Below are positions 38,692 through 59,568 of a DNA stretch of 64,000 nucleotides, one piece after another. A model generated the notes under the pieces. That model was not told where the DNA came from, made no database searches, and was given only the letters and a program-made list of their open reading frames with translations. Positions within the stretch are counted from its first letter, which is position 1. Every line of letters starts with the position of its first letter. Both the position numbers and the translations under genes were made by a program. The stretch comes from Opitutaceae bacterium TAV5 (GTDB lineage Bacteria; Verrucomicrobiota; Verrucomicrobiia; Opitutales; Opitutaceae): positions 5,937,001 to 6,001,000 of the forward strand of contig CP007053.1 of the NCBI GenBank assembly GCA_000242935.3. The letters run 5' to 3'.

Positions 38692-39327
38692 ATGAAAAAT
38701 CGTGCCTTCACCCTTGTCGAACTGCTCACGGTAATCGCCATCATCGGCATCCTTGCGGCCATCATCATCATTCCCGTGACTGCCCGGGTGCGGGAGCAGG
38801 CAAGGACCACCCGTTGCCTGGCGCAGATGAGGCAGGTTGGCAGTGCGTTCCTGATGTATGTGAACGACAATCGCGGCTACCTTCCCGTGCAGAGCACGCC
38901 TACGGCGCAATGGGATGCGGAGGGGAGCTGGACGTACGCGCTTTTTCCGTATGTGGACAACCGGGCTTTGTTTACCTGCCCGGAAAATCAGACGAAACAG
39001 GTGGATGCGCGGGTGCCGGTGAATCCCATGTACAATCCCTATGTCTCGGCGAGGTTGACGACTCCGGTTGGCGCGCCGGTCAATGTATCTCGCTCCCGGA
39101 AGCCGACGCGCGATGTGATCATGGTGGAAGAATGGTATGCCTCACTGGGAAATGCCATCACTGCTTCCCAGTCGGCGAACGCTCCTGATGCGCACTGGTA
39201 TCCGCATGACGGTAAAACCAAACGATCGACGCTGTATGTGGATGGCCATGTAAAACTGACGCCACGCGGAGGCATCCTTCATAATGGCGTGAATGGTGAA
39301 TGCGAGTGGGAGTGGCCGCGGTTCTAG
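38692..39327 (+). CDS. Pseudopilin-like protein with prepilin N-terminus and C-terminal DGH motif
   Basis: The 211-residue protein starts with a class III prepilin signal: MKNRAFTLVELLTVIAIIGI, with Glu at +5 of the mature form. The residue before the cleavage site is Ala rather than the usual Gly. The rest carries CLAQMRQVGSAFLMYVNDN and the C-terminal YVDGHVKLTPRGG, the H-X9-DG-like ending of the large DUF1559/prepilin-like groups in Verrucomicrobia and Planctomycetes. These are thought to be exported by type II secretion-like machinery; the role is unknown. It is the last gene of the GH71-like operon, and a terminator-like hairpin follows at 39493-39515. Confidence 0.85.
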   Translation: MKNRAFTLVELLTVIAIIGILAAIIIIPVTARVREQARTTRCLAQMRQVGSAFLMYVNDNRGYLPVQSTPTAQWDAEGSWTYALFPYVDNRALFTCPENQTKQVDARVPVNPMYNPYVSARLTTPVGAPVNVSRSRKPTRDVIMVEEWYASLGNAITASQSANAPDAHWYPHDGKTKRSTLYVDGHVKLTPRGGILHNGVNGECEWEWPRF

Positions 39328-39492
39328 GCCGGCCACGCTGGCGACAAGACCCGTTGCAAGCGCCGAAAGCGAGGGCGATAACGGCCTGTTTGCCAAGGGC
39401 AGGCTTGCGCCGGCATCCGGCCTGCTGGACGTGTCCTGCATCAAAAATCTTTTCGCCGGGCGGGAAATAATCCGGTTTGCCGCCATCGTGAC

Positions 39493-39515
39493 GGCGGGCG
39501 AGTGTCCCGCCTTTT
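39493..39515 (+). terminator. Terminator-like hairpin just before the GH38 start
   Basis: GGCGGG (39493-39498) pairs with CCCGCC (39506-39511) around a 7-nt loop, followed by TTTT. It ends 17 bp before the chosen ATG of the GH38 gene, so it may end the upstream operon, attenuate the GH38 gene, or mean the GH38 message starts right after it. Confidence 0.55.
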
Positions 39516-39532
39516 ATATCCGATCCCAATCC

Positions 39533-42500
39533 ATGAGCGTGGACTTCGACGAAATCACCGACGACCTGATTGCCGACCTGGTGCTCCGGGTGCGCGACGC
39601 CGTTTACCGGACGGTGGCGCCGCTGGAAATAACCGCCTGGCGCACGGCCGAGCCGGTGGCGTTTGCCAACCGCGAGTCGGGCACGCAACTGGCCCTGCGT
39701 CCCGGCGATTGCCGGGGATGGGGAAAAAACCTTTTCGACTGCGCCTGGATGCGTTTCCGGGCCGTCGTGCTGCCGGAGCACGCGGGCGCGGAGCTCGTGG
39801 CGCGCATCGACATCAACGGCGAACTGTGCCTCGTCGATGAAGCCGGCACGCCGGTGCGCGGCCTCACCTGCGTGAAATCCACCTTCGACCCCAGGCTGGG
39901 CGGCCCCGGCAAGACGGCGTGGCGGCTGCCGCCCGGCGTCGTTCGCGCTGGCGGCGCGGTCGAATTTTGGGGCGACGCCGCGTTCAACGATCTTTTCGGA
40001 GCAGTGAAGGACGGCGGCCGCATCGCGCTGGCCGAACTGGCCACCTGCCGCGAGGACGTGCGCCAGCTTTATTACGATCTGGAGACGCTGCGCGACTGGC
40101 TGTTCACGTTGCCGGCCGCGAGCGACGAGGCGCGGCGGCTGCGCGGCGATTTCGCGGTGCTGGCGGCCGACTGGCCCGCGGGCGGCGAAACACCCGATGC
40201 GGACGGCGTGGAGCGCGCGCGGGCGCGGCTGCGGCCGTGGTTCGATGCGGCGGCGAACGCGAACACAAAACCGGCGCTTGTCGTCCATGGCATCGGGCAC
40301 GCGCACCTCGACCTCGCATGGCTCTGGCCGATCCGCGAGACGATCCGCAAGGGCGCCCGGACGTTCGCCACCGCACTCTACAACCAGGAACGTTACCCGG
40401 AGTACGTTTTCGGATTCAGCCAGCCGCAGCTCTACGCGTGGCTGAAGGAGCATTACCCCGAGCTGTATTCGAAAATCCGTGATGCCGTTCGCGCCGGGCG
40501 GATCGAGGCGCAGGGCACGTTCTGGGTGGAGCCGGATTGCAACATGCCGTCGGGCGAGGCGTTCGTCCGCCAGATTCTGGTCGGGGCGCGGTTTTTCCGC
40601 GAGGAGTTCGGCACGGAGTCGGACGTCTGCTGGGAGCCTGACGTATTCGGCTATCACGGACAACTGCCGCAGATCCTGAAAAAAAGCGGTCACCGCTATT
40701 TCATGACACAGAAGCTCTCGTGGAACGTGGTCAACCGTTTCGGCCACCACTCGTTTCACTGGGAGGGCATCGACGGCACGCGCCTCCTCACGCACATGCT
40801 GCCGGAGGAAACCTACAACGGCCCCGCCGCGCCGCGTTCGTTGCGGAAGATCGCCGACGAGTACGCGGAGCGCGCCGTTTCGGACCACGCGCTGATGGCC
40901 TTCGGTATCGGCGACGGCGGCGGCGGACCGGATGCGGAGCACCTGGAGCGCCTGCGGCGCGCGCCGGCATTGCCGGGATTGCCGGCAGTGCGGATCGAAA
41001 AGGCGGAGGCGTTTTTCGAAACGTGGAGCCGCGATGCGGAAAAATTCCCGGTGTGGCGCGGCGAGCTTTATCTGGAGCGCCACCAGGGCACGCTCACGAC
41101 GCAGGCCCAGGTGAAGCGCAACAACCGCCGCGCCGAGATCGCCCTCCGCGAAGCCGAATGGGCGGCGTATCTGGCGAGCCGTTACGCGGGCGCGGCGTGG
41201 CCGGCGGCGGCGCTCGACCGGCTCTGGAAGGAAGTGCTGCTGTACCAGTTTCACGACATCCTGCCCGGTTCGTCGATCCGGCGCGTTTATACGGAGTGCA
41301 ACGCCCGCTACGAGGCGATTCTCGGCGAACTGGCGGAGATGACGCGGCGCCATTACGCGGCCGTCGCGGCGGCGCAGGCTGCCGGCGAAACGCGGGTGGT
41401 GGCATTCAATTCGCTTTCCTGGCCGCGCGACGAATGGCTGTCGCTCGGCGGCGAATGGCGGCGCGTCCGCGTGCCGGCGCTCGGCATGGCGGTGGTCGAT
41501 ACCGCGCCGGCGGCCGGAGCGGAAGAGCCTGCGGCCCCGGTCATCGCCGACGGCAACCGGCTGGAAAACGAAAACTTTGCCGTCACGTTCGCTGCCGACG
41601 GCGCCCTCGCCTCGATCCGCGACAAGCGGGCGGGCGGGCGCGAGGTGCTGGCGGCGGGCGAGGCAGGCAACGATTTTGTGGTGATCGCCGACACGGGCGA
41701 CGCATGGGACTTCGAGACCGACCACGAGAAAAAAGACGTGTGGGGCTACCTGCGCCGGCACCTGGCGCGGCCGGTGTTGCGCGAATCGGCGACCTTCACC
41801 GACGGACCCTGCGCCGTGCGCACGCAGGTGTGGACGGTCGGGAAATCGGAGATTCGCCAGACGATCCGGCTGTTTGCCGGCGCGGAGCAGATCGTGTTCG
41901 AGACCGAAGCCGACTGGCGGGACAAGGCGACGATGCTGCGCGTGCGTTTCCCCGTGGCGGTGACGGCGGACGAGGCGAGTTTCGAGATTCCCTTCGGCCA
42001 CATCCGCCGCAGCACGCGCGAGGACACGCTGGCGCAGCGCGCGCAGATCGAGGTGGCGGCGTTGCAATGGGTCGATCTTTCGGAGACCGATTACGGCGTG
42101 GCGCTGCTCAACGACTGCAAGCACGGGTTCCGCGTCAAGGGACACACGATCGACATGTGCCTGCTGCGCAGCGTGCCGCATCCGGGCACGGCGCTGATCG
42201 GCAAGGACGACGTTTCCGCGGACGGCGGCGACGGGATGGATTACACGGATCTGGAGACGCACGTCTTCCGTTATGCGTTGCGTCCGCATGCGGGCGGTTG
42301 CGACGCGGCGGCGCTGACGGCGGCGGCCCGCGCGTTCAACACGCCGCTGGCGGTGATCGGAGGCGAGGAAGGAGCGGCGGTCTCCGGACCGCTGCGACGA
42401 CGCGAAGCGTCGCTAGGTTCGGGAGATTCGCGGCTCGCAACGGCAAAGGGCGAGGCGCGTGGCGCCTCGTCGCAGCGGCAGGTACCGAGGCCAAAGGCCG

Positions 42501-42829
42501 ACAGCTTGCCATGCCGCCGCTCCGGCTACGCGGGCGGGACGTCCGCGCCACTTGTCTGCGATTCGCCGGCCATCGAGCTGGCGGCGATCAAGCGGGCCGA
42601 GGATGGCCGCGGTTGGGTGTTGCGGTTGGTCAATGTGACCAGTGACGACGTGACGACCTGGCTGGCCGCGCCGGATGCTCCCGGCGCCGGCGCATGGGAA
42701 GCATGCGACCTGCGCGAGGCGCCGCTGACGGAAGCCGTGCCGCTGACGTCGGCCGGCGGGCGCCTGGCGCTGGCATTTGCCGGGTTCGAAATCCGGACGC
42801 TGCGCTGGACGCCAGCCGGCGGGGAATAG
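39533..42829 (+). CDS. GH38 alpha-mannosidase with an in-frame repeat insertion
   Basis: A 1098-residue family 38 alpha-mannosidase that releases alpha-linked mannose by a retaining mechanism. The metal site is HGIGHAHLDLAWLWP (His258, Asp260). The nucleophile is Asp370 in VCWEPDVFGYHGQ. YQFHDILPGSSI is also typical. No signal peptide is seen, so it probably acts in the cytoplasm on imported oligosaccharides. The ATG at 39533 gives a family-like start; a longer open frame overlaps the pseudopilin gene and is rejected. Residues 947-997 correspond exactly to a 153-bp repeat (42371-42523), and a GGGC-type unit follows directly at 42530-42551. The C-terminal domain resumes afterwards with IELAAIKRAEDGRGWVLRL. 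Confidence 0.92.
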   Translation: MSVDFDEITDDLIADLVLRVRDAVYRTVAPLEITAWRTAEPVAFANRESGTQLALRPGDCRGWGKNLFDCAWMRFRAVVLPEHAGAELVARIDINGELCLVDEAGTPVRGLTCVKSTFDPRLGGPGKTAWRLPPGVVRAGGAVEFWGDAAFNDLFGAVKDGGRIALAELATCREDVRQLYYDLETLRDWLFTLPAASDEARRLRGDFAVLAADWPAGGETPDADGVERARARLRPWFDAAANANTKPALVVHGIGHAHLDLAWLWPIRETIRKGARTFATALYNQERYPEYVFGFSQPQLYAWLKEHYPELYSKIRDAVRAGRIEAQGTFWVEPDCNMPSGEAFVRQILVGARFFREEFGTESDVCWEPDVFGYHGQLPQILKKSGHRYFMTQKLSWNVVNRFGHHSFHWEGIDGTRLLTHMLPEETYNGPAAPRSLRKIADEYAERAVSDHALMAFGIGDGGGGPDAEHLERLRRAPALPGLPAVRIEKAEAFFETWSRDAEKFPVWRGELYLERHQGTLTTQAQVKRNNRRAEIALREAEWAAYLASRYAGAAWPAAALDRLWKEVLLYQFHDILPGSSIRRVYTECNARYEAILGELAEMTRRHYAAVAAAQAAGETRVVAFNSLSWPRDEWLSLGGEWRRVRVPALGMAVVDTAPAAGAEEPAAPVIADGNRLENENFAVTFAADGALASIRDKRAGGREVLAAGEAGNDFVVIADTGDAWDFETDHEKKDVWGYLRRHLARPVLRESATFTDGPCAVRTQVWTVGKSEIRQTIRLFAGAEQIVFETEADWRDKATMLRVRFPVAVTADEASFEIPFGHIRRSTREDTLAQRAQIEVAALQWVDLSETDYGVALLNDCKHGFRVKGHTIDMCLLRSVPHPGTALIGKDDVSADGGDGMDYTDLETHVFRYALRPHAGGCDAAALTAAARAFNTPLAVIGGEEGAAVSGPLRRREASLGSGDSRLATAKGEARGASSQRQVPRPKADSLPCRRSGYAGGTSAPLVCDSPAIELAAIKRAEDGRGWVLRLVNVTSDDVTTWLAAPDAPGAGAWEACDLREAPLTEAVPLTSAGGRLALAFAGFEIRTLRWTPAGGE
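42371..42523. repeat. MITE-like element inserted in frame in the GH38 gene (153 bp, 51 codons)
   Basis: The ends are GGAGCGGCGG (42371-42380) and CCGCCGCTCC (42514-42523), an exact 10-bp inverted repeat. The interior contains the hairpin CGACGCGAAGCGTCG, the block GGCGAGGCGCGTGGCGCCTC, and the wording CAGCGGCAGGTACCGAGGCC. These are shared with the element at 59431-59568, partly in inverted order. The insert begins at a codon boundary and is a multiple of three. Confidence 0.9.
42530..42551. repeat. GGGC/GCCC-family hairpin unit in the GH38 gene
   Basis: GCGGGCGGGACGTCCGC followed by GCCAC is one unit of the family seen in ispG. It sits 6 bp after the MITE-like insert and is translated in frame as part of GGTSAPL. 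Confidence 0.75.
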
Positions 42830-59430: not shown

Positions 59431-59568
59431 GGAGCGGCGGCATGGCAAGCTGTCGGCCTTTGGCCTCGGTACCTGCCGCTGCTGACGACGCGAAGCGTCG
59501 CCGGTTCGAGGGCGCTCGAGGGCGAGGCGCGTTGCGCCTCGTCGCAGCGGCAGGAATGCCGCCGCTCC
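59431..59568. repeat. MITE-like element between tgt and rluE (138 bp)
   Basis: GGAGCGGCGGCAT (59431-59443) and ATGCCGCCGCTCC (59556-59568) are exact 13-bp terminal inverted repeats. Nested inside are CCTGCCGCTGC/GCAGCGGCAGG and the hairpin CGACGCGAAGCGTCG. About 50 bp at its left end match, in inverted orientation, the right end of the copy inside the GH38 gene. It has no coding capacity of its own. Confidence 0.9.

Follow-up and report, generated by a model that had tools for sequence, protein, structure and literature searches.

A GGAG-headed repeat in the reading frame of a GH38 gene

The window (the whole 64,000-nt stretch of Opitutaceae bacterium TAV5 DNA that was analysed) contains a gene for a GH38 alpha-mannosidase whose reading frame, open over 1178 codons, passes through a 153-bp palindromic element (Table 1). 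The properties given for this segment in the preliminary description were recovered: it has exact 10-nt inverted ends (42371-42380 and 42514-42523), starts at a codon boundary, is divisible by three in length and can be read without a stop in the GH38 frame. Its placing at residues 947-997 stood as regards the insert itself, but the numbering is set by the start codon, giving residues 1027-1077 when counted from 39293 and 915-965 in the translation of 39629-42826, the numbering used below. The inverted recurrence of part of the element in a second copy within the window was also seen, although over 61-62 bp (97% identity) rather than the roughly 50 bp first given, and the reverse complement of this copy, read by eye, holds DNA encoding VPRPKADSLPCRRS, the peptide wording said to be common to both. 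A GTGG-type REP follows within 6 bases of the 153-bp element and is read in frame within GYAGGTSAPL, and the repeat-derived stretch of the GH38 gene may therefore be longer than 51 codons. The second palindrome family, GTGGCGCGGGCGTCCCGCCCGC, had 42 matches with up to 3 mismatches in the 645 kb scanned. The apex of the GGAG element, GGCAT(T)CCTGCC, resembles the apex of the GTGG REPs surrounding a RAYT-like gene inside MenF, a likeness that is a hint only.

Table 1. Features of the GH38 locus and positions of the element copies lying inside genes (window, positions in the analysed stretch; genome, positions in the source genome; domain and insert ranges are in residues).
Feature	Position	Reference	Strand	Basis or remark
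GH38 alpha-mannosidase ORF, reading through the element	39293..42829	window	+	Pfam and structure model, run on 39629-42826; insert 42371-42523, multiple of three, open
GGAG-headed palindromic element (REPIN-like), R-end to P-end	42371..42523	window	+	153 bp; translates to GAAVSGPLRRREASLGSGDSRLATAKGEARGASSQRQVPRPKADSLPCRRS
R-type end hairpin GGAGCGGCGGTCTCCGGACCGCTGC	42371..42395	window	+	sequence; same end type in other copies
Inner hairpin GACGACGCGAAGCGTCGC	42396..42413	window	+	sequence; seen again in many other copies
Inner hairpin CGAGGCGC-GTG-GCGCCTCG	42451..42469	window	+	inverted pair; seen again in many copies
P-type (long-loop) end, outward to CCGCCGCTCC	42472..42523	window	+	sequence and comparison of copies
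Core of GTGG-type REP, GTGGCGCGGACGTCCCGCCCGC	42530..42551	window	-	interspersed palindrome, in frame, 3' of the element
Second element copy, P-end to T-end	59431..59568	window	-	138 bp; the joined-flank test did not place it inside a gene
Copy in GH2 beta-galactosidase	2802722	genome		Pfam; insert 841-888, between LacZ_4 (743-838) and Bgal_small_N (897-1181)
Copy in MurD	711505	genome		Pfam; insert directly past the N-terminal domain, as far as its model matches
Copy in HrpA-type helicase with DUF3418	6162012	genome		Pfam; insert within DUF3418
Copy in ABC solute-binding protein/permease fusion	3182435	genome		Pfam; insert 545-592, between binding protein and permease

In the mannosidase, Pfam places the insert (915-965) between Glyco_hydro_38C (645-852) and Glyco_hydro38C2 (982-1058). 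The view that alpha-mannosidases have no such segment was borne out by an alignment of 14 of the 30 fetched loci, the gene itself included, in which none of the 13 homologues carries it. At the insertion site the nearest orthologue (66-68% identical) has AFNTPLTVFSGSNRIQLPVTPRIEGPG, and the domain past the insert, which is recognised by Pfam, aligns with it in frame at 57% identity. AlphaFold models built from 14 (GH38) and 9 (MurD) sequences gave pLDDT values below 50 for GH38 residues 913-971 and MurD residues 54-90, surrounded in both proteins by mostly confident folds; the predicted core of MurD is still confident with the insert present. The low pLDDT agrees with a tolerated linker and, coming from few sequences, is weak evidence of disorder. 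Together, the intact ORF and the structure model suggest that the repeat is kept as a loop of the protein.

Copy number, structure and distribution of the family

Repetition of the segment across the genome is far beyond chance. A search with the DNA of 42367-42533 gave at least 90 matches at E ≤ 10, the self-match among them (a lower bound, 40 of 182 candidate places having been scored), the best non-self match being 91% identical over 114 bp. The 13-mer pattern of the end occurs 222 times in the genome (115+107), versus 38 times (16+22) for a reversed-pattern control, and a 22-mer end, allowing up to 2 mismatches, 165 times (84+81) versus 0 for the control. A census that also recorded the flanks counted no fewer than 82 copies with two ends in the 7.4 Mb genome; it drew on places with the 22-mer end, the first 100 of the 222 13-mer places, the first 100 of 103 further places and 40 scored candidates for each of two similarity searches with the window copies. 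An element was counted if both of its ends could be recognised, with no more than 3 mismatches in total, and if it had a core hairpin; solo ends were excluded. A few of the 82, which have odd lengths (209, 258 bp) or a weakly matching second end, may have been paired by chance. Copy lengths range from 86 to 258 bp, with 77 of 82 between 100 and 190 bp.

The copies follow a common plan. It opens with a GGAG-headed end hairpin, after which comes an inner hairpin resembling GACGACGCGAAGCGTCGC; a linker that varies separates this from another inner hairpin, resembling GGCGAGGCGCGTTGCGCCTCGTC, and the other end, in inverted orientation, closes the element. The core between the two inverted GGAG-headed hairpins thus usually has two more hairpins, and part of it is absent from some copies. 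Four types of end were distinguished and are here labelled T, P, N and R. The T sequence, GGAGCGGCGGCATTCCTGCCGCTGC, is matched exactly by 98 of the 164 ends, and the P type has a long loop. The end hairpin is supported by stem changes between end variants that are compensatory (GCGGCA/TGCCGC, GCGGCT/AGCCGC, GCGGTC/GACCGC and GCGATC/GATCGC). All four elements folded as single-stranded DNA did far better than their shuffles, with z-scores of -2.95 for the window copy in GH38, -6.82 for the copy at 59431, -9.77 for a 115-nt copy and -11.95 for an element from another genus (G003), 99 nt long, which follows the common plan and has GCGGCT/AGCCGC stems. For 45 of the 82 copies an orientation could be assigned by script, and in these 78% of reading frames are open compared with 56% after shuffling; the other 37 include the copies in GH38, GH2 and HrpA. 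In the listed flanks no constant target duplication was seen by eye, and GAC is over-represented outside the ends.

Within the collections searched, the GGAG family is nearly private to the source genome. Searched for in 57 genomes with up to 2 mismatches, the 22-mer end was found 165 times in the source genome, 3, 2 and 5 times in three relatives and not at all in the other 53. The exact 24-nt end was met in nine stretches of a genome contig collection which may omit records very near the source genome (seven from Lentisphaerae MAGs, one from Verrucomicrobiaceae and one from Opitutaceae), either as a single end or, in two stretches, with a second, degenerate end.

Copies inside genes

Intragenic copies were identified by a joined-flank test, in which the flanks of each copy are joined and an open frame through the junction as well as coding-type codon composition on both sides are required. 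With exact ends, 5 of 82 copies were flagged as intragenic, compared with 1814 of 3000 random positions at the same loci, positions inside elements being allowed in this control (Fisher p = 8e-25); element copies are strongly depleted from genes. The genome-wide search for copies, genic copies and lengths modulo three that the preliminary description had proposed as a check came out in its favour, all five genic copies being multiples of three and open, as against 27 multiples of three in the pool of 82 (hypergeometric p = 0.003). This five-of-five result holds for recognisable genes, since a gene that an insertion disrupted and that then decayed would escape the test. The idea that the family is built as a multiple of three was rejected, the 82 lengths being distributed 27/29/26 over remainders 0, 1 and 2; a trend in a partial set of 64 (24/27/13) was not upheld by the full census. 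Because the whole family is without bias to three, the in-frame pattern of the intragenic copies points to survival rather than to element design.

The five host genes encode unrelated proteins (Table 1). Besides GH38, relatives without the insert were found for MurD (0 of 9 with it, including a same-genus genome with 83% overall identity), which is expected to be essential, for GH2 (0 of 9) and for HrpA (10 rows aligned, one of them cut by a contig end; none of the other 9, which are informative, has it). Some of the HrpA rows have shorter, unrelated loops at the insertion site. Two registers are used by the five copies: three proteins read GAAxxxPLRRR...CRRS and the other two ERRHSC...AAAP. 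An LplA-like gene with an 86-bp copy (675873) is open across the element, whose exact ends do not give a multiple of three and which joins in frame solely with a 1- or 2-base slip; its product is probably a further in-frame carrier. Two other hits obtained with a slip, at 1739828 and 4460385, were discarded as intragenic candidates, each lying by eye between two different neighbouring genes. At both of these places the element provides the stop codon or the last residues of the left gene.

Relation to known elements and origin of the insert

Searching for a mobilising enzyme, we found six Y1_Tnp (PF01797) loci in the source genome, none of which has a transposase gene flanked by element ends. 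Within 1.5 kb of these loci the end 13-mer had just two matches, each with 2 mismatches and partnerless (L064 and L065), two GGAG-headed hairpins near L061 and L062 had no repeats in the fetched loci, and the 560-bp interval between two ends at 1240792-1241352 contained no transposase-like ORF by eye. The mobilising enzyme is thus missing, diverged (perhaps below the Pfam threshold) or acting in trans.

Small size and terminal inverted repeats agree with the label MITE-like that had first been given to the element, but its plan is closer to a REPIN doublet than to a plain MITE. As in the REPINs described by Bertels and Rainey (2011, PMC3116915), an inverted pair of palindromes with a spacer can fold as one hairpin and is dispersed as a non-autonomous doublet, in high copy number and mainly outside genes; it differs from them, as far as their description was compared, in its inner hairpins, its GGAG head and in that a RAYT gene with its ends was not found in the genome. 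The REP definition of PMC3686654, in the part consulted, requires a 5' GT(A/G)G tetranucleotide adjoining the palindrome, and published super-families are headed GTAG/GTGG or CGTC in the texts compared, whereas GGAG stands in nearly all of the 164 ends and none of the six Y1_Tnp loci is flanked by the palindrome of the element. GGAGC beside a palindrome is not unheard of, some of the Pseudomonas REPs tabled in PMC3686654 reading GTGGGAGC... at this place. Because of the GGAG head and the lack of a cognate RAYT among the loci found, the element can be said to work like a REPIN without being filed as a member. A GGAG-headed family was not encountered in the REP, REPIN and RPE literature searched (passages of article texts), and looks new.

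In-frame insertion of palindromes is an already known kind of phenomenon, and the GGAG element, in frame in five unrelated proteins and absent from homologues of four, is a case of it. REPs of the GTAG and CGTC types are known inside genes according to the text of Di Nocera et al. (2013, PMC3733652); the number of intragenic GTAG REPs is highest in the verrucomicrobium Opitutus terrae, and REPs lying wholly inside ORFs encode 20 to 82 residues. Like the GGAG copies, those REPs are described there as short palindromes dispersed through the genome, frequently as inverted dimers, for the most part between genes and sometimes within ORFs. The present element differs in its GGAG head, its greater length (86-258 bp) and, as a rule, the presence of two inner hairpins. 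Genes for GH38, GH2, MurD and an ABC permease are unnamed in the parts of the article text compared. The comparison with Rickettsia palindromic elements made in the preliminary description is apt as a way of working: these selfish elements of about 150 bp are described as lying in frame in unrelated protein genes (PMC10969869, PMC3733652), and the likeness, drawn from description only, is in in-frame genic insertion. The genic share differs, nearly half of the Rickettsia elements being intragenic according to the review (PMC10969869), versus 5 of 82 GGAG copies by the joined-flank test.

We consider it very probable that a REPIN/MITE-like mobile element inserted in the GH38 gene and that it is a selfish sequence tolerated as a translated linker. 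Two observations had been named beforehand as speaking against insertion of a mobile repeat, the presence of the segment in homologues from distant genera and a lack of further copies, and the opposite was found in both cases (0 of 13 homologues, at least 82 copies). That the segment is a native, lineage-specific GH38 loop from which the repeats elsewhere arose is hardly conceivable: loop length at the insertion site does differ among the GH38 homologues, but the ends of the segment are the boundaries of the repeat family and are the same in four other unrelated genes. It is also unlikely, if less so, that the element inactivated the mannosidase and that the frame of a decaying pseudogene has stayed open by luck in stop-poor, GC-rich DNA. 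Several further GH38-like matches in the source genome could make loss of the gene tolerable and the element is stop-poor in most frames, but against this stand the length of the open frame, the recognisable and alignable domain behind the insert, and the same in-frame pattern in MurD with its insert-free relatives.

The use of just two reading registers in five intragenic copies could be taken to mean that the inserted peptide was co-opted under positive selection as a useful linker or binding surface. By a calculation done by hand, however, the chance that five copies fall in at most two of six registers is about 6%, which is suggestive at most, and the unrelatedness of the five host proteins, the very low model confidence of the segment in both proteins modelled and the strong depletion of copies from genes all make co-option very improbable. 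Slightly better placed than any of these, though still doubtful, is the proposal that the genome is a hot spot in which the GGAG family, the GTGG REPs and perhaps another element in MurD enter proteins in frame, the stop-poor, two-register sequence itself being selected to pass through proteins. Palindromic repeats plus a transposase gene within a MenF-like enzyme are also cited under this proposal. If it were true, selfish DNA could use genes as a habitat, and new disordered linkers could arise in this way.

Under the preferred reading, a tolerated selfish insertion, a short, non-autonomous palindromic element would have inserted into the GH38 alpha-mannosidase gene, a single strand of it folding as a long hairpin that could be mobilised in trans by an HUH/Y1 (RAYT-like) transposase. 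Judging from the in-frame joining, no empty-site strain having been found, the insertion would add 153 bp without target duplication. Because the element is GC-rich and stop-poor, about a quarter of genic insertions would be expected to leave the frame intact and free of stops (27 of 82 lengths multiplied by 78% open frames). Those among them that lie in exposed linkers or loops would survive selection, the element being translated as a disordered spacer presumably without a function of its own.

The counts show how a selfish palindrome and host genes coexist, with depletion from genes and, among the recognised intragenic copies, preservation of frame and freedom from stops. The tolerated sites are in linkers or loops, and MurD is among the host proteins. 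With one element sitting in five proteins that are unrelated, four of which have relatives free of the insert, these natural insertions form a set on which the tolerance of proteins to inserted repeats can be studied. A phenomenon so far associated mainly with Rickettsia and O. terrae is extended to a GGAG-headed family.

Surroundings of the element and its copies at gene ends

The three bases outside the element ends favour GAC (G at 84, A at 80 and C at 88 of the 164 ends), and several copies sit, as judged by eye, within a longer repeated stretch resembling TAGCGACTACGGCGTTTGAC; these features could mean that the element prefers certain target sites or that it also exists in a longer form. 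The copy in the GH38 alpha-mannosidase is followed by a GTGG REP that is also read in frame. As GTGG REPs adjoin the element at several further places, with the junction CTCC-CACGGCGGGCGGGAC or a near variant, the two suggest composite units. Two copies located at gene ends provide the upstream gene with its stop codon or last residues, as is likewise described for GTAG REPs in PMC3733652.

Features of TAV5 described in this section
Feature	Location
GTGG REP after the GH38 copy	window 42530-42551
Element copies at gene ends	TAV5 contig (G000:C1) 1739828-1739942; 4460385-4460537
Examples of flank features	loci L043, L049, L057
Second in-frame MurD segment, TTTPQPP...QAAA	L107:3368-3511
GSGSGNAAS segment, ABC fusion	L143:1348-1479
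MenF-like chorismate-binding enzyme ORF, 800 aa	L064:424-2823 (G000:C1); Y1_Tnp match 4441225-4441401

A second in-frame segment of MurD

The second MurD segment is missing in full from all nine relatives (9/9), and 17-27 nt pieces of it were found again in four other loci, a recurrence from which it may represent another repeat family. The GSGSGNAAS segment of the solute-binding protein/ABC permease fusion resembles it in look.

A Y1 transposase domain within a MenF-like ORF

Within the MenF-like ORF lies an in-frame Y1 (RAYT-like) transposase domain, set in a cluster of GTGGCACGGGCATCCTGCCCGTG-type REPs, and residues ~250-524 are skipped by the enzyme match in each of eight relatives (8/8). 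If true, in-frame read-through of an entire REP-transposase unit in this gene would be a striking find in itself.
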